Positions 14,661 to 36,293 of a stretch of DNA of 64,000 nucleotides are shown here, one piece after another; position 1 is the stretch's first letter, and each line of letters opens with the position of its first letter. The stretch is from contig JAQTTG010000003.1 in the NCBI GenBank assembly GCA_028710885.1, positions 1 to 64,000 on the forward strand, written 5' to 3'. The DNA comes from Sulfuricurvum sp. (GTDB taxonomy: Bacteria; Campylobacterota; Campylobacteria; Campylobacterales; Sulfurimonadaceae). The notes beneath the pieces were generated by a model that saw nothing but the letters and a program-made list of their open reading frames with translations, ran no database searches and had not been told where the DNA came from. A program made the translations under genes and the position numbers.

Positions 14661-14661
14661 A

Positions 14662-20094: not shown

Positions 20095-20601
20095 TTAGCG
20101 TTTCGGGATTAGTTTGATACTTTTTGGTCCACACGATTTACTTTTATCACTATCACACCCTTTTTTTCCGCCATCGCACATCTTAGGGGTATTGATGAAC
20201 TTCATATGATGTTGGTACATTCCGAGAAAGATGGGGAACTGTTTTTTTTGTTCATCGTTGAGGATTAGATAAATCGTATCAAACAAATCGATTTGTGCTT
20301 TGAGCATTTTTGCATCTGGAGAGTTGAGTGCATAGGTACCTGGGCTGAAATGACCCCCGTCAAACGCTTCAGTAGGGATAGTAGGCTCGAAAGAGCGGAC
20401 ATCTTTTTTGTACATATGTATGGCAGTCCGGATATCAGAATTGTCTTCGAGCTGCATTTGCTCAAGGGCATAGGAAATCGGCTCCAAGAGGGGAATCTGA
20501 GGATTTTGATTGCATCCTCCATTTCCGCATGCACTGGAGGGATTGCCACACGCGAAAGCAGCAGCACTAAAGAGGCTCAAAGCGAAAAGTAGAGGTTTCA
20601 T
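20095..20601 (-). CDS. Cysteine-rich periplasmic protein, Spy/CpxP-like
   Basis: A 168-residue exported protein (signal 1-17, ending AFA). The mature start is cysteine-rich (CGNPSSACGNGGC), and the end has CDGGKKGCDSDKSKSC, suggesting metal binding at both ends. The helical middle contains LNDEQKKQF, similar to the LTxxQ motif of Spy/CpxP proteins, and histidines (MYQHHMKF). A role in periplasmic metal sensing or protection is plausible given the adjacent TonB genes. It may be separately transcribed. Confidence 0.6.
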   Translation of the reverse strand: MKPLLFALSLFSAAAFACGNPSSACGNGGCNQNPQIPLLEPISYALEQMQLEDNSDIRTAIHMYKKDVRSFEPTIPTEAFDGGHFSPGTYALNSPDAKMLKAQIDLFDTIYLILNDEQKKQFPIFLGMYQHHMKFINTPKMCDGGKKGCDSDKSKSCGPKSIKLIPKR

Positions 20602-20690: not shown

Positions 20691-21404
20691 CTAACCGTTT
20701 TTGAGTTCAAAATTGAGAATCAAATTGATTTCCATCGGGAATGAATCAGCTATGTTTTTTGGAATATCGATTCCGGATGCAGTCGAAATAGCTGCTTTCA
20801 CTGCATTATGAAAAATATTTTCTCCGTTGAGTATGTTGATTGAGCTGATGGATCCGTTATCATTTAGGGTAAAACGAACCGCTACTTCTCCTTCCATTCC
20901 TCGTCGACGGGCTGCTGGAGGGTAGCGGAGATTGTTTTGGATGCTTGAGCGTAGAGAGGCTAAAAAGTGACGCTTTTCCGATGCGGTATCTGGTTTTGGT
21001 TCAGCTTTTGGAGCGGCTATCGGAGCGACAGAGACAGCCTGAACGGGTGAAGTGATCGCTGTTACTACGGGAGCAGGAGTTGCTGCTTGGAGTGCAGGTG
21101 TGATCGGTGTAGCTACAGGAATCGGCATCGGAGCAGGGGTGATTGATGTTTTGGGAATAGGTTTAGCCTGTTGGATTGGGGTCGGTGTGCTCTTTGTGAG
21201 CGGTTGTTGCTGGGTGGGTGCTATTGGCTGAGGCAACTGCACAGTGAGAGGGTGCTCTGTCGGTTGAAATGACATAATTTTAAACGGTATCCGCGTTACG
21301 GGAATGGGGTGATTCATTTGGGTGAGAACCCAAAAAGCCATCGACCCCATAAGAGCATGAAAGGCGAGTGAGAGGGCAAATGATTTGCGTGCTGGTGTTA
21401 TCAT
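20691..21404 (-). CDS. tonB: TonB energy-transducing protein
   Basis: A 237-residue TonB: one N-terminal TM helix (about 12-30, LSLAFHALMGSMAFWVLTQM), a long Pro/Ala/Thr-rich periplasmic stretch and a C-terminal TonB domain (about 145-237) with YPPAARRRGMEGEVAVRFTLNDNGSI. It links the ExbB/ExbD motor to outer membrane receptors. I choose the ATG at 21404, which overlaps the upstream stop as ATGA; the earlier ATG has no spacing to its Shine-Dalgarno. ExbB and ExbD lie 7 kb away in the divergent operon. Confidence 0.9.
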   Translation of the reverse strand: MITPARKSFALSLAFHALMGSMAFWVLTQMNHPIPVTRIPFKIMSFQPTEHPLTVQLPQPIAPTQQQPLTKSTPTPIQQAKPIPKTSITPAPMPIPVATPITPALQAATPAPVVTAITSPVQAVSVAPIAAPKAEPKPDTASEKRHFLASLRSSIQNNLRYPPAARRRGMEGEVAVRFTLNDNGSISSINILNGENIFHNAVKAAISTASGIDIPKNIADSFPMEINLILNFELKNG

Positions 21405-22051
21405 AGGTGTATCCATCCTTTAAAAATTGCTATCCCTACCCCTGCTAGGAGGATGGGGGCGGCGTGTTGGAGAACATTTCGATAATGGGAGAGGTGAATC
21501 AAACTCTCTTTGAGTATTTGCGTGAGAACAACCGAGAAAAAGAGAAACCACAACAGTGTTGCTCCAAGCCCGAATACGGCTCCATAGGCAAGTGACCAAA
21601 GAAGCGAATGCGAAGTAGCACTCAGTGTCATCATGGTGACGACAGGGGCGCAGATCGACATGGATAGGAGTGCACCTGTGATAAAGAGGGCGATGTTTCC
21701 TTGTGGGGTTTGCGGAGAGGTTGTGCAGCACGACGAAGAGGCTTTGAGTGAAAACCAGAGTCGTCCTGCGAGGATGAGGGTGATACTCCCCAACAGATAC
21801 CCCATTAACTCGGTATCGCTGATAAATGATTTGACCATACTCGCCCCCAAATAGGCGATAAGCGAGAGTGTCATGTAGCCACTGATACGCCCTAAACTAA
21901 TCGGCAGTAATACGCGAAGGCTTTGCTCACGTGTCGCACTGTTCGCCAAAAGAATAGGTGACAACAGCGGCATACAGGTGAGCATACACGCGGTTGCCCC
22001 ATACGAGAGGGCGACCAGAAAGAGCGATATTAACGCAAAGGAATCAGACAT
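21401..22051 (-). CDS. CcdA/TauE-like six-TM membrane protein
   Basis: A 216-residue inner membrane protein with about six TM helices. Cysteines sit in the first helix (TACMLTCMPLLSP) and in the fourth (SICAPVV), an arrangement like the CcdA/DsbD thiol-transfer proteins. General databases might place it in the TauE/SafE or UreH-like group. A short cytoplasmic loop has paired cysteines (SSCCTT), possibly metal-binding. It is the first gene of the tonB unit, divergent from the receptor operon across the four-half-site palindrome. It may be a permease or a reductant exporter. Confidence 0.65.
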   Translation of the reverse strand: MSDSFALISLFLVALSYGATACMLTCMPLLSPILLANSATREQSLRVLLPISLGRISGYMTLSLIAYLGASMVKSFISDTELMGYLLGSITLILAGRLWFSLKASSSCCTTSPQTPQGNIALFITGALLSMSICAPVVTMMTLSATSHSLLWSLAYGAVFGLGATLLWFLFFSVVLTQILKESLIHLSHYRNVLQHAAPILLAGVGIAIFKGWIHL

Positions 22052-22096
22052 GTAGACTCTTCTATTTTCATTTCTAAATTAGAATTATGAAGGATA

Positions 22097-22148
22097 AGTG
22101 TTACATTAGTGTTAATTTTATTTTTTAATTTAACACTAATGTAACACT
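22097..22148. promoter_or_regulatory. NikR-like operator: perfect 19-bp inverted repeat, four half-sites
   Basis: The left arm 22097-22115 (AGTGTTACATTAGTGTTAA) and right arm 22130-22148 are exact inverted complements separated by a 14-base AT spacer. Each arm carries two direct GTGTTA copies 5 bases apart. The inner pair fits GTGTTA(A)-N14-(T)TAACAC. The NikR motif reported for deltaproteobacteria is GTGTTAC-N13/14-GTAACAC. The site sits between the divergent tonB unit and the receptor operon, close enough to control both. Nickel control is inferred from the motif only. Confidence 0.7.
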
Positions 22149-22189
22149 GTTTTGAAACAATGCTGGCAATCAATCTTTAAGGAAGTTGA

Positions 22190-24469
22190 ATGAATAGTAT
22201 TAAATTATCTATTACAGCAGTATTAGCACTGTATGGATCGATGGCAACCGCTGAAGTGGTTGATTTGGGAGATGTGTCGATAAGTGCATCCAAGATCGAA
22301 CAATCAACACTGGAAGCTCCGGTAAATGTTACAGTTCTGACTGCAGATTCAATGGCGAAAACAAATACGCTGAGAATAGGGGATGCTTTAAATGCTAAAG
22401 TCCCTGGACTCTATATCCGAGGAGGTGCATTGGGTAATTCTAGACCGGGAGCGACTATGTCGATTTCTATGCGTGGGCAAGGAGGCGTATTAACTAAATC
22501 TGCAATATTGGTAGATGGGATGAATATGGCGGATGCGTATTCAGGTCAAGTGAACTGGTCAATGATCACGATGGATGATGTGGATCGTGTCGAAGTCGTA
22601 CCGGGGGTTGGATCTTCTTTGTATGGTAGTAATGCGATGGGTGGCGTTATTAGTATCACGACCAAATCACCGACCAAGGAAGAGATGTCGTTTAATATCG
22701 GAAAAGGATATGGTGATGCAGCGGGAGATCATGCGAGTGCGTTGTACCGCAATAAATTTAAAAATGGTTTGGGTGTTGTATTCGGGGTTTCTGAAAATTA
22801 TCGTGAAGGATATATCGCTGAGTATGTGACCAAAACGCCTACAGGAACACCTGCCGGTGGTGCCGTCGTTGTTAATGGGGCGACTCAAACCACTACAACA
22901 GCCGGAGCGACTACCTATATCGTAGGAGATAAAGGGACGAATGCTTCTATGGAGAAAAATATTCATGCCAAACTGTATTATGATCTTTCACCAACATCAA
23001 CGGTAAATGCCGGTTTTGCGTATTCTGATTCAGAGAGTTTGAATCGCGGCTATAACAGCTATTTGACCGATACGAGTGGAAATCCAATATTAATAGGAAC
23101 TACGGCGACAAGTCTCAATCTGAATGGTCAAGCAACTACGATTAAGGAGCAAGATTTTGCAGGTTCTATTCCAATGGGGAATACGGCATTGCGATATTTT
23201 GCAGGATACGATGGAAAAATCGGAGAGAGTAAGTTGAGCCTCAATTTTGGAAAAATAGATCGTGAGTATTGGAGCTCTGCTATCGGGGCAACGGCAACTC
23301 TTACCTCAGGTGCGGGAACCATGAATACGTCACCTAATAGTACAACCAATGCTTCGGCGCAACTAACCACCCCGATTGGTGATAGCCATTTATTGATTAC
23401 TGGGGTTGCGACGGAAGTTGGACGTCTTCATCAGAAAAAATATGCTGTTTCAAATTGGACGGATATGGATACCAAAACAGCGGAACTGGATCGTATCGAT
23501 GCAAGAAGTATGACTAACTCGCTATTTCTACAAGATCAAATCGTTGTGAATGATGATCTATTACTGTATGTAGGCGGACGGTATGATATGTGGAAAGCCG
23601 GAGGCGTTGGGGTGGTGACGACAGGCTCTGTTCCTGGGACATTTAATTATGATGATCGCAGTGAATCGGCATTTAGCCCAAAAGTTGCCGCCGTTTATAT
23701 GCTCAACAATCGAACATCAATCAAAAGTTCGATTGGGACAGGATTTCGTGCACCGACAAATTATTATCTCTTTGCAAACCCTACATTTTCAGGTAATGCC
23801 GCACCCAACGGAAAGATGATCTACTCGAATCCAAATTTAAAACCTGAAAAAGCAAAAGCGTTTGATCTTGGGGTGGAGTATCACTTTGTTGACGGGGGAA
23901 AAGCAATGGCTACCTGTTTTGCCACTAAAACTACGGATCTAATTTATCAGAAAATCACTAAAGTACCTCAATATACTGATCCGATTATCAATAAAGTAGT
24001 TGATTATATTGCACAGCAGGAAAATACCGGGGAAGCATTGGCAAAGGGAATTGAACTCTCAGGAGAGTATCCGTTAGCAGATTGGCTATCAGTAATGGGG
24101 AGCTATTCATATACCGATTCAAAGATTACGAAAGACAACACTAATACAGGAATGGTAGGAAAACGGGTCACTAATGTTCCAAAAGATATGGTGACATTGG
24201 CTTTTATGGCTGAAAGAGGGGATTGGTCGGGCGTATTGTCAGGACGACATATTGGAGAAGTGTATAGTAATAATGATAATTCCGATGTTGTAAAAGGGGT
24301 ATGGACGGGTTATAGCAAGTACACGGTGATTGATTTGAAAACCAATTATCAGATCAATAAAAATTTTATAGCAAGCCTAATGGTTGATAACCTGTTTGAT
24401 AAAGAATACTATGAGTATTACCGTATGCCGGGGCGTGGAGTTACGATTAATCTATCGGCGAATTTTTAA
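22190..24469 (+). CDS. TonB-dependent outer membrane receptor
   Basis: A 759-residue TonB-dependent receptor. Signal peptide 1-21; TonB-box-like VVDLGDVSISAS; plug domain about 40-155 (RIGDALNAKVPGLYIRGG, ILVDGMNMADAYSG, DRVEVVPGVGSSLYGSNAMGGVISI); then a 22-strand barrel ending in phenylalanine (SANF). The layout resembles receptors for metal chelates and vitamin B12. It is the first gene of a nine-gene operon behind the NikR-like operator, so a nickel chelate is the favoured cargo; siderophores or cobalamin are alternatives. Confidence 0.93.
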   Translation: MNSIKLSITAVLALYGSMATAEVVDLGDVSISASKIEQSTLEAPVNVTVLTADSMAKTNTLRIGDALNAKVPGLYIRGGALGNSRPGATMSISMRGQGGVLTKSAILVDGMNMADAYSGQVNWSMITMDDVDRVEVVPGVGSSLYGSNAMGGVISITTKSPTKEEMSFNIGKGYGDAAGDHASALYRNKFKNGLGVVFGVSENYREGYIAEYVTKTPTGTPAGGAVVVNGATQTTTTAGATTYIVGDKGTNASMEKNIHAKLYYDLSPTSTVNAGFAYSDSESLNRGYNSYLTDTSGNPILIGTTATSLNLNGQATTIKEQDFAGSIPMGNTALRYFAGYDGKIGESKLSLNFGKIDREYWSSAIGATATLTSGAGTMNTSPNSTTNASAQLTTPIGDSHLLITGVATEVGRLHQKKYAVSNWTDMDTKTAELDRIDARSMTNSLFLQDQIVVNDDLLLYVGGRYDMWKAGGVGVVTTGSVPGTFNYDDRSESAFSPKVAAVYMLNNRTSIKSSIGTGFRAPTNYYLFANPTFSGNAAPNGKMIYSNPNLKPEKAKAFDLGVEYHFVDGGKAMATCFATKTTDLIYQKITKVPQYTDPIINKVVDYIAQQENTGEALAKGIELSGEYPLADWLSVMGSYSYTDSKITKDNTNTGMVGKRVTNVPKDMVTLAFMAERGDWSGVLSGRHIGEVYSNNDNSDVVKGVWTGYSKYTVIDLKTNYQINKNFIASLMVDNLFDKEYYEYYRMPGRGVTINLSANF

Positions 24470-24471
24470 CC

Positions 24472-25431
24472 ATGAAAGAGGGGTTATCAAAAGTATTGTT
24501 AGTCATGGCGATGGTAATTATGCATGGGGCATTGCCGATTTTTGCGGACGATTTTTTATGGATCGATGAATCCAAGAAAAAATCGTGTTGCAAAGGTGCG
24601 GATAAAGAGTCGGGAAGTAAAGAGTTTGTTATTAAAATAGGGAGTTTGGAGGAGAGTACAAAAGTTCGCGATTTAAACAATACCATTGTTTATATTCGCG
24701 ATATGGATCATGTTGTCACTGAGCTCAATGTGAGCGGTGGGAAAATCTCATTTACCCCTGAGCATAAAGGGGGATATCGTCTCTATGCTGAGCAAAATGA
24801 GGTTCAAAACGGTGTTTTACAAGTCCATCTCTCCTCGGTGAGAATCCACAATAAAGAGGGAAATATCTCTCAATCTCTCCTTAAAGAAATTCGTGGAAAA
24901 ACAAACGATTCCCATTACGATAATGTGCCTCTCGTTCAGCTTCCTTTTGAGTTGATTATGGAGCGACCGATTCGACGTCATCACATTAACTGTTGTCTCT
25001 ATTCAGGAGATATTGCCCCTTTTAAACTGTACTACAAAGGGAAAGAGCAAAAAAACATCCCATTACGGGTAAGTATGGAAAGCGGATGGAATGCTACGAT
25101 AAAGCCTGATGAAGAGGGGATGGTCTCGTTTGAAATTCCGCGTAGTACGTATGCAACAACCGAAAAAGAGAAAAAACATTCCGAAAAAATGATTGTCGAA
25201 GCATCGTACGATGTGAACGAATCGGGAGTTTATAAGGGAGAATCGTATCAGAGTATTCATTATGTGATGACATTACCGCTTTCGTTTGGTGCGTCACCAC
25301 TCGAATACGAATCAAAAGTACTAGGATTTGCGACCGCTATCGGCGTTATGTTGGTCTTTTCGCTGGGGCTTTACTATAACCGACGCAAAAAACGTAAAAC
25401 GCCCAAGGAGATCTATTTTGACGAAGAATAA
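24472..25431 (+). CDS. Secreted, membrane-anchored protein of the uptake operon
   Basis: A 319-residue protein with a signal peptide (1-25, ending IFA), a large periplasmic part and a C-terminal TM anchor (about 283-303) followed by a basic tail (RRKKRK). Beta-rich segments (GGKISFTPEHKGGYRLYAEQ, PDEEGMVSFEIP) resemble DUF4198/NikM-like domains seen beside nickel and cobalt transporters, but the match is weak. Metal-ligand candidates are KKKSCCKG, RRHHINCCLY. It lies 2 bases after the receptor gene. It may receive metal or chelate in the periplasm. Confidence 0.6.
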   Translation: MKEGLSKVLLVMAMVIMHGALPIFADDFLWIDESKKKSCCKGADKESGSKEFVIKIGSLEESTKVRDLNNTIVYIRDMDHVVTELNVSGGKISFTPEHKGGYRLYAEQNEVQNGVLQVHLSSVRIHNKEGNISQSLLKEIRGKTNDSHYDNVPLVQLPFELIMERPIRRHHINCCLYSGDIAPFKLYYKGKEQKNIPLRVSMESGWNATIKPDEEGMVSFEIPRSTYATTEKEKKHSEKMIVEASYDVNESGVYKGESYQSIHYVMTLPLSFGASPLEYESKVLGFATAIGVMLVFSLGLYYNRRKKRKTPKEIYFDEE

Positions 25432-26431
25432 ATTCTCCTTGCGCCGCGCCGTGAATAATATGAATTTGGTGCGGTTTCGGTTTTGGTTTCAGATCGTTGC
25501 GTTTGCTCTCATCGTTTACGGCGGATATATCGGGCTTGATTTAGGGAATAAATTACCAACTTTTGCGTGTGTATTTAACGGAGAAGGGACGGGTGGAAAA
25601 TGTTATGTTGGAGAGCTTCAGCATGATTTGAAACACCCTTTGGAAGGATTTATAGGATTTGCAGGTTATGCATTTTTGATCTCACTCGGGATGTTTGCGG
25701 TGTGGTTTTGGGCGTTGAACAAAGGGTGGTGCGGTTTTGTTTGTCCACTGGGGACAATGCAAGACTGGCTTACGATGGCGCGGGAAAAAAGCAGAATTCG
25801 TTTTAGCGAGTATTCATGGGCGAACCGTAAAAAGATCAAGAGTATCAAATACATCCTCCTCATTTTATTGTTGCTGTTGCCTGTGATGATTGCGAACTCG
25901 GTGTTTGGACTCCCGAAACTTCCTAACGGTCTTTCGATGCCGTTTTGCGATATTTGTCCCGGACGGATGATGATTCCGGCATTTACGGGGCATTTCAACC
26001 AGTTTTATATCGATTTTTCCTCGAAAACTGATTTGGTGATGACGACATTGGGGATGATTATAACGGGGCTATTTTTAGTGGGATCGTTTATCAAAAAGCG
26101 ATTTTTTTGCTATTTTTGCCCGATGGCGGCATTGCAGTACGTTTTTTCCAAACCGGCATTGCTGAAACTTTACAAAGACGGGGATAAATGTACCCGTTGC
26201 GGGGATTGTTACCGCGCGTGCGATATGGATATCCTCGAAATCGCTGATGATGTGAAAACGAAAAATATGGTAACCGAAGATTGTACTCTGTGTCTTAAAT
26301 GCATCGCGGCGTGTCCTGAAGAGGGGTGCTTGGAAGCCAATTTTATGGGAGCAACTATTTTTGAATCGACCAAAGAGGGGTTTGTCCTTCGAATGGCGAT
26401 GGATCAGCATAAGGAGTCACATGCACACTGA
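25418..26431 (+). CDS. NapH-like membrane ferredoxin
   Basis: A 337-residue inner membrane iron-sulfur protein of the NapH/NosR-C type, with about five TM helices. Cytoplasmic motifs: CGFVCPLGTMQDW (about 104), CDICPGRMM (about 178), CYFCPMAALQYV (about 234), CTRCGDCYRACDMDI (about 260) and CTLCLKCIAACPEEGC (about 290). A TTG start at 25418 is chosen for its GGAG 7 bases upstream, overlapping the previous gene by 14 bases; ATG 25460 is the alternative. It could pass electrons from the quinol pool to the adjacent double-cubane ATPase system. Confidence 0.85.
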   Translation: MTKNKFSLRRAVNNMNLVRFRFWFQIVAFALIVYGGYIGLDLGNKLPTFACVFNGEGTGGKCYVGELQHDLKHPLEGFIGFAGYAFLISLGMFAVWFWALNKGWCGFVCPLGTMQDWLTMAREKSRIRFSEYSWANRKKIKSIKYILLILLLLLPVMIANSVFGLPKLPNGLSMPFCDICPGRMMIPAFTGHFNQFYIDFSSKTDLVMTTLGMIITGLFLVGSFIKKRFFCYFCPMAALQYVFSKPALLKLYKDGDKCTRCGDCYRACDMDILEIADDVKTKNMVTEDCTLCLKCIAACPEEGCLEANFMGATIFESTKEGFVLRMAMDQHKESHAH

Positions 26432-27692
26432 ACATACGATTGAATCGCCGCATGAGCGGCAAAACCGTCACAAAGCGATGGAGGCGATCCATGTGATTAA
26501 TGCACTCAAAGAGGATTTCAAATCACCGATCAAAAGCATGGAGTATTTTTACACTCTTTTTGAGCGAGTGTATTGCAATCATGAGCCTTTGCATGAGGGA
26601 AAAAGTAAGATTGGGACGATGTGTATTCAAATCCCCTCTGAAATCATCTATGCATTGGATGGAGTGCCGATACGACTGTGTAACGGGTTTTATACCGATG
26701 ATGAGATCGGGGGTGATTTGATGCCTCAAAAATCGTGTCCGCTGGTCAAGGCGACGGTGGGATTGTTCGCCTCGGATAATTTCTCGGATAAACCGGACAT
26801 CACCTTTTCTCCGACGACGTGCGATCAAAAAACCAAAGCGGGTGCGATTATCGAGAGTTTCGGTCACACCATCATCGATGTAGGATTTCCCCGAACCAAA
26901 GAGAGTGAGGCGAGCCGAGCGTATTGGCGTGAAAGTGTCAAAGGTTTCGCGGTAGAACTCTCAAAATTTCAGGGTAAAAAGCTCACTCGGACTAATTTGG
27001 AGAATTCCATTAAAAAAGTGGGGTATGCCCAATCGCTCTATCACAAGCTCACCGAATTTCGAAAACATCAAGCGGTTCCGATTTTGGGTGTCGATATGTT
27101 TTTGGTTACCAATGCGTTCTTTTTTGACAAAATAGACGATTGGATACGAGCGGTTGAAAATCTGGTTGCTGAGTTGGAACAACGAAGTAGCGAAGGGGTA
27201 CATGTCGCCGGAAAAGCTAGCCCGCGTATCGTCTATACGGGTTCACCACCGATTTTCCCGAACTATAAAATCCCTCTTATTATTGAGCAGAGTGATGCAA
27301 TTATTGTTGCTGATGAGACGTGCAGCTCGAATCGGATGTTTAATGATATGGTCGCAGTGGATGAGTGGAATCTTTATGACATGATCGATTCGATTTCGGA
27401 TAAATATCTCAAAGCGTGTACGTGCCCGATATTCACCCAAAATGATGATCGGATTCGCCGAATTATCCAACTGGTGCGCAGTTACAGTGGTGATGGAGTA
27501 ATTTATCAAGCCTTTGCGGGGTGTCAAGTATATGAGATGGAACAGCGTAGTGTGTTAGCGGCGATGGAGAGGGAGGGGATTCCGATCCTCTACATCGAAA
27601 GCGATTACAGCCCCTCACAGCAAGGACAGCTCACGACACGGGTGGAAGCATTTGTCGAGTCATTAAAAAATCGAAAGAGAATGAAAAAATGA
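26421..27692 (+). CDS. Double-cubane cluster protein (HgdB/YjiM-like)
   Basis: A 423-residue member of the 2-hydroxyacyl-CoA dehydratase D-component/double-cubane cluster protein family (E. coli YjiM type). Cysteines along the chain fit cluster ligands: GTMCIQIP, QKSCPLVKA, TTCDQKTKAG, DETCSSNRMF, CTCPIFTQND and FAGCQVYEME. Family members accept low-potential electrons from an ATP-driven activator, here encoded directly downstream (ATGA overlap). I start at ATG 26421, after AAGGAG. A single component, rather than the alpha/beta pair of true dehydratases, favours the double-cubane type. The substrate is unknown. Confidence 0.85.
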   Translation: MHTEHTIESPHERQNRHKAMEAIHVINALKEDFKSPIKSMEYFYTLFERVYCNHEPLHEGKSKIGTMCIQIPSEIIYALDGVPIRLCNGFYTDDEIGGDLMPQKSCPLVKATVGLFASDNFSDKPDITFSPTTCDQKTKAGAIIESFGHTIIDVGFPRTKESEASRAYWRESVKGFAVELSKFQGKKLTRTNLENSIKKVGYAQSLYHKLTEFRKHQAVPILGVDMFLVTNAFFFDKIDDWIRAVENLVAELEQRSSEGVHVAGKASPRIVYTGSPPIFPNYKIPLIIEQSDAIIVADETCSSNRMFNDMVAVDEWNLYDMIDSISDKYLKACTCPIFTQNDDRIRRIIQLVRSYSGDGVIYQAFAGCQVYEMEQRSVLAAMEREGIPILYIESDYSPSQQGQLTTRVEAFVESLKNRKRMKK

Positions 27693-28495
27693 ATTATTTT
27701 GTAGGGATCGATATCGGCTCTACCGCGATTAAAATCAGTGTCGCGGATGAGAATAAAAATTTAGTAGGGCATAAAATCAGCGCAAGCGGGAGTATGTTTT
27801 ACAAATACGCTCAAGAGGCACTCAGTGATTTATTACGTGAGTTGGGGATTGATGAAAAAGAGGTGGTCTATACGGTAGCTACAGGATATGGGCGTAAACT
27901 CTTTAAAGAGGCGGATGAAAACATTAGTGAGATTACCGCCAATGCTATCGGTGCACAGCAAGCCGCCAAAGAGCACGGTAATATTAAAACCATTATCAAT
28001 ATCGGCGGACAAGATAGCAAAGCGATTTCACTCGATGCTGAGGGGAATGTGGTTAATTTCGCGATGAATGATCGGTGTGCAGCGGGAACGGGAAAATTTT
28101 TGGATGTTGTAGCGATGAATCTGGAGATAGGGGTGGATGAGTTGAGTGATTATCATTTTAAATCCAAAGGGACACCGCTCTCAATCAGCAGTACATGTGC
28201 CGTGTTCGCTGAGTCTGAGATCATCGGATTGCTAGGGAACAACCACAGTGTCGAGGACATCGTATCGGGAGTTCACTACTCCATCGCCAAACGGATTGTA
28301 AAGCTAGTCAAACGGGTAGGGGTAAAAGAGAATGTTTATTTTGACGGTGGTCCTGCCCTGAATGATGGATTGGTGAATGCTATCGAAAATGAGTTGGGAC
28401 ACAAAATATTTGTACCCGATTATCCACAAATCACGACATCCTACGGTGCGGCGGTGTTAGCATGTGACGCTTTTAATAGCGAATCTGTGAATTAA
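27689..28495 (+). CDS. ATP-dependent activator of the double-cubane protein (HgdC/YjiL-like)
   Basis: A 268-residue ASKHA-fold ATPase of the BadF/BadG/BcrA/HgdC family. It shows the phosphate-1 motif GIDIGSTAIKISV, ATGYGRKLF, NIGGQDSKAI, the cluster loop NDRCAAGTGKFLDV and the second cysteine in STCAVFAESEIIGLL. The two cysteines would bridge one 4Fe-4S cluster across a homodimer. Such proteins use ATP to push single electrons into their partner. It is coupled to the upstream double-cubane gene. Confidence 0.92.
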   Translation: MNYFVGIDIGSTAIKISVADENKNLVGHKISASGSMFYKYAQEALSDLLRELGIDEKEVVYTVATGYGRKLFKEADENISEITANAIGAQQAAKEHGNIKTIINIGGQDSKAISLDAEGNVVNFAMNDRCAAGTGKFLDVVAMNLEIGVDELSDYHFKSKGTPLSISSTCAVFAESEIIGLLGNNHSVEDIVSGVHYSIAKRIVKLVKRVGVKENVYFDGGPALNDGLVNAIENELGHKIFVPDYPQITTSYGAAVLACDAFNSESVN

Positions 28496-28510
28496 AAAAA
28501 GGAGAAGTAG

Positions 28511-28963
28511 ATGGACAATAGCAGTATGTTGGAACTTGCGCATAGTGGGATTGATTACGGAATTATCGGGGTTTTAGTATTGATGAGTGTTGTCTCTTTA
28601 TGGCTTTTTATTGAGCGTATAATGGCGTATAGCTCAATTCGAATCGAGGATTATGTAACCAAAGAAGAGTTTGAACTTGATTTGGGAAATCATGTTTCTG
28701 CTATCGCGACAATTGGTTCAAATGCTCCATATGTTGGATTACTCGGTACTGTTTTAGGAATTATGATTACGTTTTACAGTCTCGGAGATGTTGGTGCGGT
28801 TGATCCGAAAAAAATTATGACGGGGTTAGCATTAGCACTCAAAGCCACCGCAATGGGACTCGTCGTGGCAATCCCATCCATCGTGTTTTATAATATTTTG
28901 CTTCGTAAAATGGAACGTCATTTAGCCGTATGGGACATTAATGCCCATAAAAATAGAGGGTAG
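28511..28963 (+). CDS. exbB: ExbB/TolQ family motor protein
   Basis: A 150-residue inner membrane protein with three TM helices and the ExbB/TolQ core IATIGSNAPYVGLLGTVLGIMITF and LALKATAMGLVVAIPSIVFYN. With ExbD it converts proton motive force into TonB movement. It is the short form common in Campylobacterota. AAAGGAG precedes the ATG. Confidence 0.93.
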   Translation: MDNSSMLELAHSGIDYGIIGVLVLMSVVSLWLFIERIMAYSSIRIEDYVTKEEFELDLGNHVSAIATIGSNAPYVGLLGTVLGIMITFYSLGDVGAVDPKKIMTGLALALKATAMGLVVAIPSIVFYNILLRKMERHLAVWDINAHKNRG

Positions 28964-28967
28964 TTTT

Positions 28968-29357
28968 ATGAGAATGAAACGGGTCGATACGATTAACGTT
29001 ATTCCGTTCATCGATATTATGTTGGTTCTTTTGGTGATGGTTCTTACCACTGCAACCTTTATCCGAACAGGATTGATTCCGGTAGATTTGCCCGATGCAA
29101 AAGGGAGCGCAACTGAGCATAAGCCCAGTGAGCTGAAGCTAACAATCCAAAAAGACGGAACATTGATGCTGGGTGAAGAAAAAGCACCCATCTCACTATC
29201 CGAATTTGAACAGCGGGTTGTTGCCGGAGGCAAAGAGATGACAGTGGTTCTTTATAGTGACAAAGATGCCGCATTTCAAAACTTCGTTGGGGTGATGGAT
29301 GTTCTCAAACGTCTAGGGCATGAGCAACTTTACATCGTGACCGACAAACAAAAATAA
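28968..29357 (+). CDS. exbD: ExbD/TolR family motor protein
   Basis: A 129-residue protein with one N-terminal TM helix containing the proton-carrying aspartate (NVIPFIDIMLVLLVM) and a periplasmic domain. I start at ATG 28968, 4 bases after the exbB stop and after GAGGG; a longer frame would overlap exbB. It forms the motor with ExbB for the TonB at 20.7 kb. Confidence 0.93.
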   Translation: MRMKRVDTINVIPFIDIMLVLLVMVLTTATFIRTGLIPVDLPDAKGSATEHKPSELKLTIQKDGTLMLGEEKAPISLSEFEQRVVAGGKEMTVVLYSDKDAAFQNFVGVMDVLKRLGHEQLYIVTDKQK

Positions 29358-29369
29358 AGAGGAGTTTTT

Positions 29370-31457
29370 TTGAAACATCAATCATATCTACACTATTTAC
29401 TGATAAGCGGTGCGTTATTATCAAACGTGTGCGCGCAAGAGATTGTCACATTGGATAAAATTCAAATAGCACAGACGTACACTGCCATCGATGAGCGACG
29501 GGATAACTCTATCGCCAAACGGATCATTAACGGTGAGGAGTTAACGCAATACGGAGATACCAATGCGTTGGAAATTTTGCGCCGAACCCCTGGGGTAACG
29601 ATCCCAAACGGTAAAGGACCTGCTGCCGCACCGGGTAAAGGGTATACGGTTGTGATGATCGACGGTGAGGAGACATCGACCGGAACGAGTAGACGGGTCA
29701 GCCCATTGGAGCAAATTTCTCCTGATATGATCGAGCGAATAGAGGTAATGACAAATGGAGCTGCAGAACATACTGCTGAATCAATGGGGGGCATTGTCAA
29801 TATTGTTATGAAAAAACCAAAAGTCGATGGGAGAATATCTGCAAAAGTGATTATCGGTGCTTATGGGAAAGATTTAAGCAAAACAGCATATGTTCAAAAA
29901 GAAGGGAAAGTCGATTTATTATCATATTTGGTTAATCTTACAACATCGGAGAATGTAAAAGAAGATCGTACTGATATCGTTATTGATAAAATAGGAACAG
30001 GTTCTAATGAAGAACGGTACGAGTTGAGTAAAAATCGTTCTGCAGGAATACGGAGTAAATTGATATACACTGCTTCTTCACGATTAAAAATTCTTTATGA
30101 TGGTTCTTTGACACTTAACCATGACAGCACATATATAGATTCAAATACATATTTTAATGGGGCAACTCCCTTAAGCTACTATCACAGCGTAGATGATGCT
30201 ACTAATACTATGCTTTGGTCGGCATTGGGGGCTGAACATCGGTTAGGAGATGATATTTTTGAATGGAAAGTAAAAATTCATTCATTTGAAGAAAATGGCG
30301 ATTTAGATTCTACGTCCTCTGCTACATCAACCACCCGAAAAGATCACGATCATATTTTGAGTCGTTTTTACGGATTTCAGGGGGATTACTCTATGTTGCG
30401 GGAGGATCATTTTATCAAGAGTGGATTTGAACTTAAAAGAGGCGATCAAATTGATGAAGTTAAACGATTTATGAATGGAGTTGATGTCACTTTAGCAACT
30501 GATAATGTACGGATGAGAGAAGATAAACTCTCTTTCTATACGCAAGATGAATTTACTTTTAATGATCGGATTGTTATTACTCCAGGTTTACGGTATGAAG
30601 CCCTCTCTCGTGATTATGGTACTACATCATCATTAGATTATTTTGCTCCATCGCTACATACACTTTTCCATATCACTCCAGAAGACAATCTGAGAGCAAG
30701 TGTTGCGAAAACTATTCGTCTGCCTCGTTTAAGTCAGCTATCATCAAGTACAAAAAGTACTTTGGGAGAAAATGATATTCATCGTCCAGATGTGACTGGA
30801 AACCCTAACTTAATAGAAGAAAAAGCATTTAGCTATGAACTTCGGTATGAACACTTTTTTGCAGATAAAGGGGTTGGAAGTATTGGTAGCTTTTATCGAG
30901 ATATAACGGATAAAATTGAAGATATTGTCCAATATGATACTCTAAAAAATAGATATATCAAAAAACCTGAAAATGTAGGAAAAGGGTCGCTTTGGGGGGT
31001 GGAATTGGAATTTAAAAAATCACTCAAAGAATATATAGATGGGATGGGTATTTTTGCTAATGCAACATTGCAAAACTCATTGTTAATCAATGACCTTACT
31101 GGAGTTAAGCGAGAGATTCTTCAAACGCCAAAGTATATTTATAATATCGGACTAGATCATACTCTTAAATCTTCTGAGGTTACGTATGGTGCTGCGTATC
31201 GTTATGTTGGAGGGTATGATAATCCGGTAGAGTATTCGATTGCTCAGAGTCAAAAAGGGTACGGCACCCTTGACCTTTATGCCAATAAACGGATCAATAA
31301 AATGTTTAAATTGCAGTTTAATGTGAAAAATATCACCGCTTCTACGGTAGAAACAACTTCACGTTTGTACGATCTAGGGGGCGCAATCACTCAAACTCAA
31401 GTGGATAAAGAACATACAAAACCACAGGTACTTTTATCAATAGAGGGGAAATGGTAA
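29370..31457 (+). CDS. Second TonB-dependent receptor
   Basis: A 695-residue TonB-dependent receptor, beginning at TTG after GGAG. Signal peptide 1-22 (NVCA); plug about 40-150 with NALEILRRTPGVTI, VVMIDGEETSTG and GAAEHTAESMGGIVNIVMKKP; barrel ending in tryptophan (SIEGKW). It differs clearly from the first receptor (about 65 residues shorter, little local likeness outside the plug), so the operon may import two forms of the cargo. It is the last gene of the operon. Confidence 0.9.
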   Translation: MKHQSYLHYLLISGALLSNVCAQEIVTLDKIQIAQTYTAIDERRDNSIAKRIINGEELTQYGDTNALEILRRTPGVTIPNGKGPAAAPGKGYTVVMIDGEETSTGTSRRVSPLEQISPDMIERIEVMTNGAAEHTAESMGGIVNIVMKKPKVDGRISAKVIIGAYGKDLSKTAYVQKEGKVDLLSYLVNLTTSENVKEDRTDIVIDKIGTGSNEERYELSKNRSAGIRSKLIYTASSRLKILYDGSLTLNHDSTYIDSNTYFNGATPLSYYHSVDDATNTMLWSALGAEHRLGDDIFEWKVKIHSFEENGDLDSTSSATSTTRKDHDHILSRFYGFQGDYSMLREDHFIKSGFELKRGDQIDEVKRFMNGVDVTLATDNVRMREDKLSFYTQDEFTFNDRIVITPGLRYEALSRDYGTTSSLDYFAPSLHTLFHITPEDNLRASVAKTIRLPRLSQLSSSTKSTLGENDIHRPDVTGNPNLIEEKAFSYELRYEHFFADKGVGSIGSFYRDITDKIEDIVQYDTLKNRYIKKPENVGKGSLWGVELEFKKSLKEYIDGMGIFANATLQNSLLINDLTGVKREILQTPKYIYNIGLDHTLKSSEVTYGAAYRYVGGYDNPVEYSIAQSQKGYGTLDLYANKRINKMFKLQFNVKNITASTVETTSRLYDLGGAITQTQVDKEHTKPQVLLSIEGKW

Positions 31458-31461
31458 TTTC

Positions 31462-32349
31462 CTAATATAACACGATATTCTCCAATCGGCATGAATCCAA
31501 CTGTTTTGCATCCGTTAGGGTGATAATACTTGTTATCGTGAGCAGTGTGATGAGGATGATGGCGATCATAATTCCTCTGCTTTTCCCCCCTGCTTGTAAA
31601 ACAGAGCGTTTATCGTGATGAATTAATGACGTAATCGGCGATTTGGCAAATGTTTTTTCGCATGCACTTTCGCATAATCCGCATTGGATACATCGGATGT
31701 CAAAGCCCTCGCGTATATCGAGTGCGGGAATCGGGCAGATTTTCACACAACCGCCACAATCAGTGCAATGGTTTTCAGGGTCTTCAAAGGCATACGTTAA
31801 TCGATCTTCGATAGGGAGAATCGCGCATATCGCACCATAAGGGCAGAGATAGGCACAGTACCACCCCTGAACCATAAATACTTCCGCAATCATCAAAAGA
31901 GATAAAAAAATCACCAACCACCCTGCAAAAGTGAGCTGTCGCAATGCATTGATGAGTTCGGGGGCTGAAATGCCATACGCAATCACAGAAAAAGCGAGGG
32001 TAAAAGAGAGGAGACCCAAAAGGATAAAGCCTAATAATTTAGATAAAAATGAATTTTTTCTCCCTGAAACACGAGAGAGGATATGGGCAAAAAAAGTATT
32101 AGGGCAGAGTGTTCCGCAATAAAAGCGTGAGAGGGTAAGGGCAATTATGATGGCAACACTGATTCCTAATAATGCGATAAGGGCAATAAGTGCATAGGTT
32201 CCTATTTCGTGAGCAAATCCAAGAACTTCGAGACGATCATGAGAAAAATTAAAAAGGAGAAGATGGTAATTGCCTATTGTTATCCATGGGAGAGCGATAA
32301 AAGGGATCAGGAGGGCTAAAAAAGTTTTGTTATCGGATAGAAACCGCAT
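31462..32349 (-). CDS. Polyferredoxin membrane protein (NapH/CcoG-like)
   Basis: A 295-residue inner membrane protein with five or six TM helices and cytoplasmic Fe-S motifs CGTLCPNTFF (about 84), CAYLCPYGAICAI (about 166), CTDCGGCVKICPIPA (about 196) and CIQCGLCESACEKTF (about 220). The start at 32349 follows AAAGGGG and overlaps the thioredoxin stop by one base (TGATG). The family moves electrons between quinols and periplasmic or cytoplasmic acceptors. It lies in the same direction as the cytochrome genes upstream. Confidence 0.85.
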   Translation of the reverse strand: MRFLSDNKTFLALLIPFIALPWITIGNYHLLLFNFSHDRLEVLGFAHEIGTYALIALIALLGISVAIIIALTLSRFYCGTLCPNTFFAHILSRVSGRKNSFLSKLLGFILLGLLSFTLAFSVIAYGISAPELINALRQLTFAGWLVIFLSLLMIAEVFMVQGWYCAYLCPYGAICAILPIEDRLTYAFEDPENHCTDCGGCVKICPIPALDIREGFDIRCIQCGLCESACEKTFAKSPITSLIHHDKRSVLQAGGKSRGIMIAIILITLLTITSIITLTDAKQLDSCRLENIVLY

Positions 32350-32831
32350 CACATCCCCTTTCGATTCATTTTCCATGTGTCGATTCTTTGGTTTGCAGGG
32401 AGGGTGCCGTTTTCTAGTCGCCCCTCTTCGAGCCGCTTAATCAATGCTGTTAAAATTGTTTTATCGGGAATAGACTGAAAACGTTTCACCACAGTACCGC
32501 TTTGATCAGCGATAAGGATATAAGGGATATTTTCGGTTAGTCCAAACGTTTTACCTTTCTGCAGTGCAGGAGAATTATCAACATTGACGGCGGTGATAAG
32601 AATTTTTGGATGCGTTTTTTTGATTTCATTCATTAAAACGCGTGCACGCGTGCACGGTGGACACCATGAGGTGTAAAAAACGACGATGGAGATTGTATTT
32701 GGTTTATAAAATTGGGTGTTTTTGAGTGATAGCGGGGCACTAAAAATAATGGTAGTAATGAGCATCATCCAAATGACCCTCATAGGAGAGCCGAATATGC
32801 GTTGAATCTTTAAGGAGGTCGTTCGCTTCAT
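32349..32831 (-). CDS. Thioredoxin-like membrane-anchored protein
   Basis: A 160-residue protein with an N-terminal TM anchor (about 18-34) and a periplasmic thioredoxin fold with the active site WCPPC (about residue 56) and the cis-proline NIPYILIAD. It probably reduces or oxidises periplasmic thiols, for instance apocytochrome CxxCH motifs of the two neighbouring cytochrome proteins. It is coupled to the polyferredoxin gene. Confidence 0.85.
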   Translation of the reverse strand: MKRTTSLKIQRIFGSPMRVIWMMLITTIIFSAPLSLKNTQFYKPNTISIVVFYTSWCPPCTRARVLMNEIKKTHPKILITAVNVDNSPALQKGKTFGLTENIPYILIADQSGTVVKRFQSIPDKTILTALIKRLEEGRLENGTLPANQRIDTWKMNRKGM

Positions 32832-32869
32832 ATGGGCTCTCTTATTAGGATGTTGGATGCCAAAGGGAA

Positions 32870-32891
32870 AAATCCCTTTGGAAGTCGGCTA
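32870..32891. terminator. Hairpin between cytochrome and thioredoxin genes
   Basis: CCAAAGGG (32870-32877) pairs perfectly with CCCTTTGG (32884-32891) around AAAAAT. The right arm includes the last base(s) of the 440-residue protein's stop codon. No T-run follows on the minus strand, so it may attenuate rather than stop transcription, or protect the mRNA 3' end. Confidence 0.45.
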
Positions 32892-34211
32892 TTTTTGCTT
32901 CAACACCCATTCGATGAGTGTTTTAGCCTCTTCATCCGTAACGGTTTGCGGAGGCATCGGAGTTTCACCCCATTTGCCCGTACTACCGTTTTTGATGGAG
33001 GCGATGAGAATATCAGCGCTTTCACCTTTGGCGGCAACATCTTTGTACGCCGGACCTACAAGCTTAGTATCAACACTATGACATGCCAAACACCCTTTGG
33101 AATCGGCGAGTGAAACCGCCGGATCGAGAACGACAGCCGGAGCATTTTTCATCTCCTCTTTGTGTGCTTTGTACTCGGTGATAACGTCACTCATGTATTT
33201 TTCCGTTGCTTCGGCTTGTAATTGCAGAGGTTCCGCAAAACTCACCACACGGATACCGTGACGCGCCGTTGCCATCAAGGCTACCGCCACAACCATCAGT
33301 ACCATTGCTTTAGTTGCATCGGATAGGGAGAACTCTTCTTTCGTAAACCGTTTAAGGAGGAAGAAAAAGAGGATCAACAATACCGCTGATGCTGCGAATG
33401 GCAAGAATACAAACGGCGTATGGATATACGCTTCGCTGATGCGTGGACTGAAGGCGAAAAATACGAGTGGCAAGACGGCGATGTTGACAGGCGCTGCCCA
33501 CATAAACCATTTTTTACCCTGATCGATCGCCAAACGTCCTGCTTCAGCGTCTTCTCCACCCGCTTTTACCCATTTGACTCCCAGATAGATCATTACGATC
33601 CCCGTGAACGCAAATGCAGTGAGGAAGAAGTTGATAAGGCGGAAGAATGTCAACGGAGTCAACATAATGTCCCAAATATTTTTGACCGAAGCAAACAATT
33701 CCGGTTGCAGATAGAGGTTAGACATCGACATAAACACCGGAGGCAACGTATAGAACGTCAATACCGCAACCAAGCCGATAGCGATGTGAAAACCTTTGTG
33801 GTTATGCAATGAATGCCAGCTGAATTTGTACGCATACGAGAGCAAGAACGCGAAGATGTTCCCGTAAATGATGTGCAAAATATGCGGAGAAACTTTGAGA
33901 ATCGCCGTATAGAAAAATCCGGTATAGAGTACCGAGATAACGAGCAACGGAGCGACCCCCCACAATGCCCCCATATTCTCACTGATGGTGGTTGGATTGG
34001 TCATTTTGTACGCCAATAAATCGTCTGTTTTGGACTTTTTAAAGACACCCGTAATGTTATAGAGAACCGATGCGGTAGAGGCACCGATTAGGGTATAGAT
34101 AAATGCGATATGCACAACAAAAACGATAATCCCGAGGGTATCGAAAAACCAGCCGGGGAGTCCCATCGTCGGTACAACGAGGGGGATGTCAAAAGGGAGT
34201 TTCCAGTTCAT
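32889..34211 (-). CDS. CydA-like membrane protein with C-terminal cytochrome c
   Basis: A 440-residue membrane protein with about nine TM helices, distantly like subunits of cytochrome bd-type oxidases, and a periplasmic class I cytochrome c domain (about 365-440, KGCLACHSVDTKLVGPAY with a distal methionine in PMPPQTV). Histidines in the first helices (VVHIAFIY, WHSLHNHKGFH) could bind heme b. It overlaps the preceding gene by one base (TAATG). The pair is probably a heterodimer linking the quinol pool or periplasmic cytochromes to an acceptor. Oxygen reduction is not proven. Confidence 0.78.
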   Translation of the reverse strand: MNWKLPFDIPLVVPTMGLPGWFFDTLGIIVFVVHIAFIYTLIGASTASVLYNITGVFKKSKTDDLLAYKMTNPTTISENMGALWGVAPLLVISVLYTGFFYTAILKVSPHILHIIYGNIFAFLLSYAYKFSWHSLHNHKGFHIAIGLVAVLTFYTLPPVFMSMSNLYLQPELFASVKNIWDIMLTPLTFFRLINFFLTAFAFTGIVMIYLGVKWVKAGGEDAEAGRLAIDQGKKWFMWAAPVNIAVLPLVFFAFSPRISEAYIHTPFVFLPFAASAVLLILFFFLLKRFTKEEFSLSDATKAMVLMVVAVALMATARHGIRVVSFAEPLQLQAEATEKYMSDVITEYKAHKEEMKNAPAVVLDPAVSLADSKGCLACHSVDTKLVGPAYKDVAAKGESADILIASIKNGSTGKWGETPMPPQTVTDEEAKTLIEWVLKQK

Positions 34212-35605
34212 TATTTGATCTCTCCTCTTTTATTAAGTGATGCGATATAGGCGGCAAGTGCGTCTTTCTCGGCTTCTGTTCCGGTAAATGGAGGCATATA
34301 CGGCGTTCCACCACCCGGTAGGTTGTTGATTCGGTTACGGATAGCCTCTTCACTCCACCCTTTGGTTAGGAATTTAAGACCGTTGATCCCGTTTTCGGTG
34401 TGACAGGCGCGACACTCGATTTGAGCGATGGTATGTCCCACGTCGATGAGGTTTGATTTGTCCTCTTTGAGCACTTTTTTATCTTCATCAACGAAGACAG
34501 CGTGTTTGAGGATACCGACCTTATTGAGATACGGTACATCGGTGACACGGATACCGTTCGCATACATGTAGTTGTAGATCAAGAACGGTTTGCGGATAAA
34601 CTCACGGGTACGCTCTTCATATCCCCAAAAGAGCATGAACGCGGCAACCATCAATGTTGCGGCGATGTAAGGCATCCGTTTCGGAGAGAAATAAGCGATA
34701 ATCGTGGTGAGGACGACGGTACCGCCGATCGCACTGATGATGGTGTACATCAACTCCATTTTATCGGCAAATGCTCTTGTCATCATCGCCGTTGGGATCA
34801 TTGCACGCGCCGCTTCGGGGATTTGCAAGAGATAAAAATACCCTAGCGCCGCACCGATCGGAACCGTAATGAGCATGATCTTTGCGAAAAATCGGATCAT
34901 GCGTTCTTTGGTTTCACGGATTTTTGCATCTGAGCTGAAACTGGTGATGAGCCATGTCCACATGATTGCCAATGCAGCGGCAAATGCGATAGAGCTGAAC
35001 GTTCTAAATGCGAGTCCCGGTATCCATGTTGGATTAAATAGAGCATTGTTGTAGTTGACGACTCCTGGATACACCTCAGGATCAATCCACGGTTGACCAT
35101 CGAAGTTCGGAGTGAGCATGAATCCCAAAATCGCAGTGATGATAAGCATCGTTACCCATGAAGAGAGGGCGTAATAGATACCGAATTTAACCGATTTAGT
35201 ACGTCCCTCAGCACTTTCAGCCTTAGGTTTCCAAGACATAAACCAGAAAAGGAGTAAGATAACCTCGAAGTTGAAGACAATCCATTCGATAAACCATTTC
35301 CAAAAGAAAACGCGGATGAGTCCACCGATGGCGTTAGGGCTGATGATGTTAGCGTGAATCCACATCCCGATTCCGGTGAGGGCACCGACAGAGGTAGTGA
35401 TGATAAAAAAGACCATGAGGAGACGATAGACGGTTTCATACCCCGCCAAATCATTTTTTTTGTTGGTCCACCATGCGGCGAGAGCGAGTACCACAGATCC
35501 TCCGACGGCACCGCCGTGAGAGACGAATACGTGGATGATCGCATTAATTGCCATGAGCATTCTTAGCCCAATCGTGGGCATTTCGAATATGGGAAAATCG
35601 AACAT
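34211..35605 (-). CDS. CydA-like membrane protein with C-terminal cytochrome c
   Basis: A 464-residue membrane protein, paralogous in layout to its downstream neighbour: about nine TM helices and a C-terminal cytochrome c domain (ECRACHTENG about residue 397; distal methionine in TPYMPPFTG). The first helix carries HVFVSHGGAVGG, resembling the heme-ligand helix of CydA, and there is a WKWFIEWIVFNFEVILLLFW helix. The classical quinol Q-loop is not evident. It is the first gene of the operon, with a TATAAT box upstream. It may be a cytochrome-c-linked quinol dehydrogenase or an unusual bd-like oxidase. Confidence 0.78.
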   Translation of the reverse strand: MFDFPIFEMPTIGLRMLMAINAIIHVFVSHGGAVGGSVVLALAAWWTNKKNDLAGYETVYRLLMVFFIITTSVGALTGIGMWIHANIISPNAIGGLIRVFFWKWFIEWIVFNFEVILLLFWFMSWKPKAESAEGRTKSVKFGIYYALSSWVTMLIITAILGFMLTPNFDGQPWIDPEVYPGVVNYNNALFNPTWIPGLAFRTFSSIAFAAALAIMWTWLITSFSSDAKIRETKERMIRFFAKIMLITVPIGAALGYFYLLQIPEAARAMIPTAMMTRAFADKMELMYTIISAIGGTVVLTTIIAYFSPKRMPYIAATLMVAAFMLFWGYEERTREFIRKPFLIYNYMYANGIRVTDVPYLNKVGILKHAVFVDEDKKVLKEDKSNLIDVGHTIAQIECRACHTENGINGLKFLTKGWSEEAIRNRINNLPGGGTPYMPPFTGTEAEKDALAAYIASLNKRGEIK

Positions 35606-35630: not shown

Positions 35631-35855
35631 TGCACGGCAACGTCGGAGAAACAGCGCAAAAAAACGCTATAATGTAGACGTTGCTATGCAATACGTTTTT
35701 CCGCTCGCCTGCGAGGTCCAATTCATTTGGCGGGCGGATCGTTGGTTTGTTTCTTCGACGTTTCTTCCTCCTTTATACTCCTGAAGTATTTTCTGAGAAC
35801 ATGATTATGGATTGTTATTGTTAATTTTGTGTTAAGTAGTAAAAATAAGAATATA

Positions 35856-36293
35856 TTAAATATTTGATGTGATAAGGCACTTTTTCATTGTATCTTTCCA
35901 ATCGATTGAAAAGTTTTTGAGAATCACTTTAGACTCATGAGGGATAGTACAGTCGGAACAATCGTGATGGAGTGAGCTTTCGTGATGAAATACTTTGCCT
36001 AGCGGTGCATTTATAGCACAATGGCTGTATACAGTGATTTTTTCTATATTAGGAAGGGCATTGTCGTCGAAGCGAAAATGGGGACATGCACACCAGTAAC
36101 AGTTAAGATGAGGAATGTCATGGCATTTGGTTTTAGTTGTGTAGAGGAGACAAAAATCGCTCTCATAGTACACCATGTTGTCAAACTCAAAATACTCCAC
36201 AATTTGTTCGGGAGTTAGCTTTTCTGCGCTTAATCGGTTAACGATAGCACGATGTTTTTTAGTATGAATCTGGAACCAATCGGTATATGTCAT
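35856..36293 (-). CDS. Cysteine-rich small domain protein
   Basis: A 145-residue cytoplasmic protein with a cluster of cysteines and histidines: KCHDIPHLNCYWCACPHFRF (about 57-76), SHCAINAP (about 91) and HHDCSDCTIPHES (about 108). This resembles the 'cysteine-rich small domain' family, probably zinc- or Fe-S-binding, sometimes found near cobalamin genes. No clear partner nearby; it is divergent from the ArsC-like gene by 35 bases. Confidence 0.7.
   Translation of the reverse strand: MTYTDWFQIHTKKHRAIVNRLSAEKLTPEQIVEYFEFDNMVYYESDFCLLYTTKTKCHDIPHLNCYWCACPHFRFDDNALPNIEKITVYSHCAINAPLGKVFHHESSLHHDCSDCTIPHESKVILKNFSIDWKDTMKKCLITSNI

Follow-up and report, generated by a model that had tools for sequence, protein, structure and literature searches.

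Gene content of the locus

The window analysed here is a stretch of 64,000 nucleotides from Sulfuricurvum sp. (assembly GCA_028710885.1, contig JAQTTG010000003.1, positions 1 to 64,000, forward strand). At 22190-31457 it carries eight genes, all on the plus strand, that encode a double-cubane-type reductase, its ATP-dependent activase, a NapH-like polyferredoxin, an anchored secreted protein and ExbBD, with a TonB-dependent receptor as the first and the last gene. Spacing between consecutive genes is, in order, 2 bp, 28 bp, an overlap, an overlap, 15 bp, an overlap and 12 bp. Because no gap exceeds 28 bp and many of the genes overlap, the eight are likely to form a single transcript, in agreement with the one continuous operon described by a first-pass annotation made from the sequence alone. 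The same gene set includes a divergently oriented DsbD_2-TonB pair (20691-22051). An oxidase-type operon (31462-35605) has the same operator as the receptor/reductase operon, an arrangement repeated in loci L150 and L134. The features are as follows.

20691..21416, minus strand: TonB (PF03544)
21401..22051, minus strand: DsbD_2-type membrane protein with a conserved CxxxC in helix 1 (PF13386)
22098..22115, minus strand: operator box TTAACACTAATGTAACAC, a direct repeat with an 11-bp step, facing the DsbD_2-TonB operon
22130..22147, plus strand: operator box TTAACACTAATGTAACAC, facing the receptor/reductase operon
22190..24469, plus strand: TonB-dependent receptor 1 (PF00593/PF07715)
24472..25431, plus strand: secreted protein with a C-terminal membrane anchor, DUF4198/Zcp-like fold predicted from a structure model
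25460..26431, plus strand: NapH-like membrane polyferredoxin (12 Cys in common with E. coli NapH)
26421..27692, plus strand: HgdB-like double-cubane-type reductase (PF06050), start ATG at 26421 or 26478
27689..28495, plus strand: ATP-dependent activase, HgdC type (TIGR00241)
28511..28963, plus strand: ExbB2 (TIGR02805)
28941..29357, plus strand: ExbD2 (PF02472; TIGR02804, score under cutoff)
29370..31457, plus strand: TonB-dependent receptor 2, TTG start
31462..32376, minus strand: CcoG/FixG-like polyferredoxin of the oxidase-type operon
32349..32831, minus strand: thioredoxin-like protein of the oxidase-type operon
32889..34211, minus strand: second membrane subunit of the oxidase-type operon, with a C-terminal cytochrome c domain
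34211..35605, minus strand: subunit resembling the bd-oxidase superfamily, with a C-terminal cytochrome c domain (PDB 5doq, E 8e-9)
35819..35835, minus strand: operator box TTAACACAAAATTAACA, upstream of the oxidase-type operon

The reductase, its activase and the polyferredoxin

The protein encoded at 26421-27692 carries the HGD-D domain across its full length, scoring 302 bits to PF06050 (cutoff 28.4). Its score of 324 bits to the NCBIfam double_cubane model (NF040772) lies under the curated equivalog cutoff of 350, and for this reason it is called double-cubane-type rather than double-cubane cluster protein (DCCP); judged by these scores, it is a near subfamily of DCCP. Seven of its cysteines align with the cluster-ligand cysteines of PDB entries 6eno and 7yyl, and each is at least 93% conserved in 68 relatives. 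The resemblance to the DCCP/DCCP-R system of Carboxydothermus hydrogenoformans, from which those structures come, extends over almost the whole length (phmmer E about 1e-64), and there, as in the window, the activase gene is adjacent to the reductase gene. The window reductase differs in being encoded within a TonB operon and beside a NapH-like partner; to our knowledge, DCCP has no such partner. The activase scores 231 bits to TIGR00241 (cutoff 125), and its cluster cysteines, C130 and C170, are conserved across 70 sequences. A 2-hydroxyacyl-CoA dehydratase or benzoyl-CoA reductase heterodimer was considered and rejected because the genome encodes this single HGD-D protein and no second HGD-D subunit. 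Double-cubane proteins can attain potentials close to the limit of biology, and their natural substrates are largely unknown.

The NapH-like protein scores 68 bits to TIGR02163, under the NapH cutoff of 213, and has all twelve cluster cysteines in common with E. coli NapH, including two [4Fe-4S] motifs. Mean column identity across 36 sequences is 72%. Residues C37, C48, C163, C166 and H55 are invariant in this group and absent from E. coli NapH. A structure prediction was too poor for use (pLDDT 55.5), and the sides of the membrane on which cysteines lie were assigned instead from the order of hydrophobic segments, which places these residues on the face opposite the clusters, the predicted periplasmic one. 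Extra invariant cysteines at such a position suggest that the periplasmic side has a redox or metal site. The protein thus resembles the polyferredoxins NapH, NosH and CcoG in its two cytoplasmic cysteine pairs and two [4Fe-4S] motifs (as in E. coli NapH), but differs from them in the four additional cysteines predicted to be periplasmic, in its double-cubane-type reductase partner and in the absence of NapG.

The anchored protein and the receptors

The anchored protein encoded at 24472-25431 had no match in a Pfam scan, and the best of its scanned relatives reached 31.6 bits to DUF4198, where the cutoff is 34. Its AlphaFold2 model (pLDDT 81.5) matches Zcp with a Z score of 17.3 and an rmsd of 3.0-3.1 over about 200 residues. 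Zcp and a nickel-bound DUF4198 protein together match at Z 16.5-17.3, and the best unrelated structure at Z 6.6, so that the modelled fold is DUF4198/Zcp-like. Structures of Zcp have been solved with zinc, cobalt and copper. Many relatives of the anchored protein are 770-930 aa long and consist of an N-terminal polyferredoxin membrane domain followed by the DUF4198-like part; some of these have a NosL domain between the two.

For receptor 1, the closest solved structures are colicin I, enterobactin and haem receptors. It contains a single cysteine and neither a CxxxM nor an HxM motif. Receptor 2 is seen only in Sulfuricurvum-type loci.

Conservation of the gene set

A reductase search of one genome per species gave 74 loci, among which 36 are flank-complete, extending 6.5 kb or more upstream and 5 kb or more downstream. 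By iterative profile searches, the NapH-like protein and the DUF4198-type anchored protein occur in all 36 of these, DsbD_2 in 35, the activase in 34, a TonB receptor in 33, ExbB/D in 20 and TonB in 17. Adjacent gene pairs among related loci are NapH-reductase (70), reductase-activase (68) and anchored protein-NapH (66). Several loci (L006, L007, L010 and L050) have two to three copies of the receptor, anchored protein and NapH genes, while the reductase and activase remain single. Across the 36 loci the conserved set includes no inner-membrane importer, and none is encoded in the window operon.

Carriers belong to Campylobacterota, among them Sulfuricurvum, Sulfurimonas, Sulfurovum, Arcobacter and Hydrogenimonas, and to the Alpha-, Beta- and Gammaproteobacteria; those at 51-55% identity include Gallionella, Thiobacillus, Dechloromonas, Rhodocyclaceae, Chromatiales and Alphaproteobacteria. 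One cultured carrier is Sulfurovum mangrovi, in which the system is plasmid-borne. The link between an HgdB/HgdC pair and TonB uptake that the first-pass annotation proposed therefore holds well outside this genome, contrary to the outcome that the annotation named as refuting it, with the NapH-HgdB-activase core beside TonB receptors in 33 of the fully flanked loci, in Campylobacterota and beyond. That annotation also knew of no system with this combination of genes; we found no description of it in the open-access literature searched, subscription papers being outside the search, and the system is conserved and, apparently, so far undescribed.

In L024 (11203-14283) and 24 other loci, the activase gene has as its neighbour the gene for a divergent RND transporter, which is about 1027 aa long. 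Its scores fall far under both the multidrug and the heavy-metal efflux cutoffs.

An operator box shared with copper genes

Alignment of upstream regions shows that the operator unit is a direct repeat, TTAACA-N5-(T/G)TAACA, whose halves are spaced by one helical turn; a -10-like element, TATTATACTT, often follows it. A direct repeat joined to such an element is what would be expected for a regulator of the OmpR/PhoB type. The box is perfect upstream of the first gene in 26 of the 36 operons and matches at 11 of 12 positions in six more. It occurs at three of 262 genes remote from the system, and all three belong to one orthologous response-regulator family; the Fisher value for this enrichment, 5e-26, overstates independence, the loci being related by ancestry, but the trend itself is plain. 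In 15 carrier genomes, the 18-bp form of the box occurs 33 times and a reversed control pattern eight times. A looser palindrome pattern, run over 200 genomes, was of no use because it recurred too often in AT-rich genomes. The operon upstream regions showed no conspicuous Fur-like box.

Orthologues of the response regulator are encoded in nine system loci and are 39-52% identical to the copy in the window's own genome, as compared with 25-33% for other regulators. The own-genome regulator shares an operon with its kinase and ExbBD, and the box stands at the start of this operon. At this locus (L149, 6901-11590) the genes for the regulator (9266-9925) and the kinase are flanked by manB-pyrC-like housekeeping genes on one side and by exbBD on the other, and the box precedes the manB-like gene; the housekeeping genes may thus be co-regulated with copper.

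In carrier genomes, the box precedes TonB receptors of the system, ExbB, bd-like oxidase genes, NosL, OprC-type receptors and a TauE/DsbD_2 gene that itself precedes cbb3 oxidase genes. Pattern searches were the sole source of the regulon list for the own genome. In the family to which the window's genome belongs, the box was found in 55 of 61 genomes drawn regardless of the reductase. Thirty of these sites were read: nine lie before OprC-type receptors with (A/G)CPNRM-like motifs, five before the TauE gene, three before NosL, and one each before a bd-like oxidase, DsbD_2, TonB, ExbB and a system-type receptor. The copper site of OprC consists of C143, M147, H323 and M325 (PMC8610252). In the second regulon receptor of the own genome (L148), ACPNHM and DHYM align with the OprC motifs ACPNRM and DHIM, and OprC-type receptors with the complete ligand set are encoded within system loci L021, L034, L036 and L043. 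Members of the same regulon thus have the full CxxxM-HxM set of the ionic copper receptors OprC and NosA (PMC8610252), whereas the receptors of the window operon are not OprC-type. Among Betaproteobacteria, the copper chaperones SCO1 (L056) and PCuAC (L073) are encoded near the system. Since OprC-type receptors, NosL, ExbBD and oxidase genes of the cbb3 and bd types all lie downstream of this box, the operon is very probably a member of a copper regulon.

A proposed role in copper acquisition

The mechanism that we propose is that of a copper-acquisition operon whose ATP-driven reductase pair handles an imported copper complex reductively. Under control of the two-component response regulator, and presumably induced by copper shortage, the operon would supply a receptor through which, with TonB-ExbBD, a copper complex enters the periplasm. 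The membrane-anchored DUF4198-fold protein, fused to NosL in relatives, would receive the complex there. In the cytoplasm the activase would spend ATP to drive electrons into the double-cubane protein, and these electrons, at very low potential, would most probably be handed to the NapH-like polyferredoxin and cross the membrane with the help of the DsbD_2 protein. The complex or its ligand would then be reduced in the periplasm, freeing Cu(I). Taken as a whole, this mechanism seems to us as likely to be right as wrong. The outward direction of electron flow is favoured because an importer is absent, because the NapH-like protein has cysteines predicted to be periplasmic, and because NapH is duplicated with the receptors while the reductase stays single. 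The particular idea that super-reduced electrons made by cytoplasmic ATP hydrolysis cross through the polyferredoxin to strip copper from very stable complexes is more tentative, and we would sooner bet against it than for it.

Periplasmic import and reduction of a copper complex are proposed because a logic known from Bordetella pertussis recurs in the window. There, the copper receptor CrtA has a PepSY_TM reductase-like protein as its partner, and a copper-free bd oxidase is essential under copper limitation (PMC12914433). Like the crtA-PepSY_TM operon, the window combines a copper-linked TonB receptor with a membrane redox protein and a tie to respiratory oxidases, and some CrtA-type operons further resemble it in having TonB-ExbBD or PCuAC/ScoI genes. 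By this analogy, the three box-controlled units of the window would follow the same logic as CrtA and the bd oxidase. The window differs in that the redox partner is an ATP-driven double-cubane pair plus a polyferredoxin rather than PepSY_TM, and in regulation by a two-component box rather than by CruR.

Several observations weigh against copper acquisition by periplasmic reduction. A box before the operon is evidence on regulation, not on substrate. Both receptors of the window lack the OprC-type CxxxM plus HxM ligand set, and receptors vary highly from locus to locus. Metal ligands of the Zcp type were not found conserved in the anchored protein, whose alignment (A1, in which metal sites were not superposed) has Gly, Trp, Tyr and Ser as its invariant columns and showed no conserved His; a shared fold alone is no proof of metal binding. 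Reduction of Cu(II) to Cu(I) usually needs no potential as low as that of a double-cubane pair; so strong a reduction would be sensible if the ligand binds Cu(II) with very high affinity or is the species that becomes reduced. This point and the lack of a copper ligand in the window's receptors weigh most heavily against the proposal. Directly downstream of the system in L058, from a Gammaproteobacterium, lie apparent zinc-uptake genes (13160-15400; ZnuA-like, Zur-like and ABC ATPase), and in the alphaproteobacterial loci L053 and L055 a CobN-type chelatase and PepSY_TM are encoded beside the system, in the same direction in L055, which could mean a tetrapyrrole cargo. NosZ does not track the system, being present in 15 of 34 carriers and 50 of 200 phylum genomes and absent from the own genome. 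Many of the loci, finally, come from metagenome bins and are not independent.

Alternative explanations

The first-pass annotation placed a super-reduction of the imported cargo in the cytoplasm, with the NapH-like protein feeding the activase from the membrane and the metal left open. Activases do require an electron donor, the NapH gene adjoins the reductase gene in 70 cases, and reductase and activase are members of cytoplasmic families. Quinols alone, however, have too high a potential to charge an activase, and the features cited above for outward flow (no inner-membrane importer in the conserved set, invariant NapH cysteines on the predicted periplasmic side, duplication of NapH with receptors and not with the reductase) all count against it, leaving this reading doubtful and, in our estimate, improbable. 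We rate at the same low level a copper role other than uptake, in which the pair would maintain a periplasmic copper site, or the assembly of an oxidase or N2O reductase, in the reduced state, or would serve in copper defence. NosL domains and genes, together with cbb3-linked and RND genes, do occur in the regulon or the loci, and the NapH-like protein resembles the electron-supply proteins NosH and NapH; the near-constant presence of a receptor in the set nevertheless points to import, and NosZ does not co-occur. Supply of N2O reductase in particular was rejected, NosZ not being linked to the system.

Other cargoes fare worse. Demetallation by reduction of a metallo-tetrapyrrole, haem or a relative, would fit the top family-model score of receptor 1, which is to a haem receptor model although under its cutoff, and the CobN-type chelatase of L053 and L055, a protein of the same family as the haem de-chelatase HmuS (PMC12583661). 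In the HmuS/CobN systems TonB-dependent import likewise delivers the cargo to the periplasm, where the metal is freed, as we propose for copper. CobN is nonetheless absent from the window operon and found beside the system in those two alphaproteobacterial relatives only, a search of the window and of five loci found no B12 riboswitch, and the regulon is copper-like; we consider a tetrapyrrole quite unlikely. Nickel uptake under NikR, nickel being among the examples given by the first-pass annotation, seemed convincing at first: the own genome encodes NikR, and the gap 22051-22190 holds a long inverted repeat whose inner part, GTGTTAA-N14-TTAACAC, is near the deltaproteobacterial NikR consensus GTGTTAC-N13/14-GTAACAC (PMC545781). 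NikR, however, is present in just four of 34 carriers, and so missing in 30, and, in a 200-genome sample of the phylum, in one of the nine ortholog-bearing genomes; the operator is kept in genomes that lack NikR, and the box is in fact a direct repeat common to copper genes. Nickel was therefore rejected, and we regard it as very improbable indeed. The earlier interpretation is thus partly supported: it recognised the unusual make-up of the operon, its suggestion of a metal chelate stands as the most plausible class of cargo, and its suggestion of nickel was wrong.

The two boxes at 22098-22147 stand in inverted orientation and so mimic a NikR operator, and automatic regulon annotation could take such sites for NikR sites.

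Implications

If super-reduced electrons do cross through the polyferredoxin to strip copper from its complexes, the system would be a new class of TonB-dependent metal acquisition, in which an HgdC-type activase would for the first time serve the periplasm and a double-cubane-type protein would have a first physiological role; should electrons run outward, it would also represent an unrecognised route for ATP-driven reduction in the periplasm. The double-cubane-type protein gains a fixed genetic partner in the polyferredoxin, a regulon in that of copper and a pathway in TonB uptake, which amount to a first concrete lead to its natural function. Cultured Campylobacterota, Sulfurovum mangrovi for example, allow direct tests of the question. 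For a large group of sulfur-oxidising bacteria, we also propose a copper regulon that is under two-component control and has a defined box.

Neighbouring genes

Both bd-oxidase-like membrane subunits of the oxidase-type operon (32889-35605) end in a cytochrome c domain and could represent a cytochrome-c-linked branch of the bd-oxidase superfamily. A Pfam scan of these genes gave no match to bd-oxidase families, and the larger subunit alone, which resembles subunit I of bd oxidase, matched a PDB entry, for which reasons an initial CydA/CydB label was softened. Upstream of this operon, on the same strand, a 145-aa cysteine-rich protein is encoded at 35856-36293. Adjoining tonB, at 20095-20601, is the gene for a secreted protein of 168 aa with Cys/Gly-rich ends (CGNPSSACGNGGC... 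and ...CDGGKKGCDSDKSKSCG); it has no Pfam match and is a possible metal-binding protein. Farther away, at 7234-12434, molybdopterin oxidoreductase genes encode a catalytic subunit of 967 aa, a four-cluster iron-sulfur subunit and a cytochrome c protein, a set that resembles type II enzymes of the DMSO-reductase family and is followed by genes for a chaperone-like protein (12938) and then a polyferredoxin (13500).

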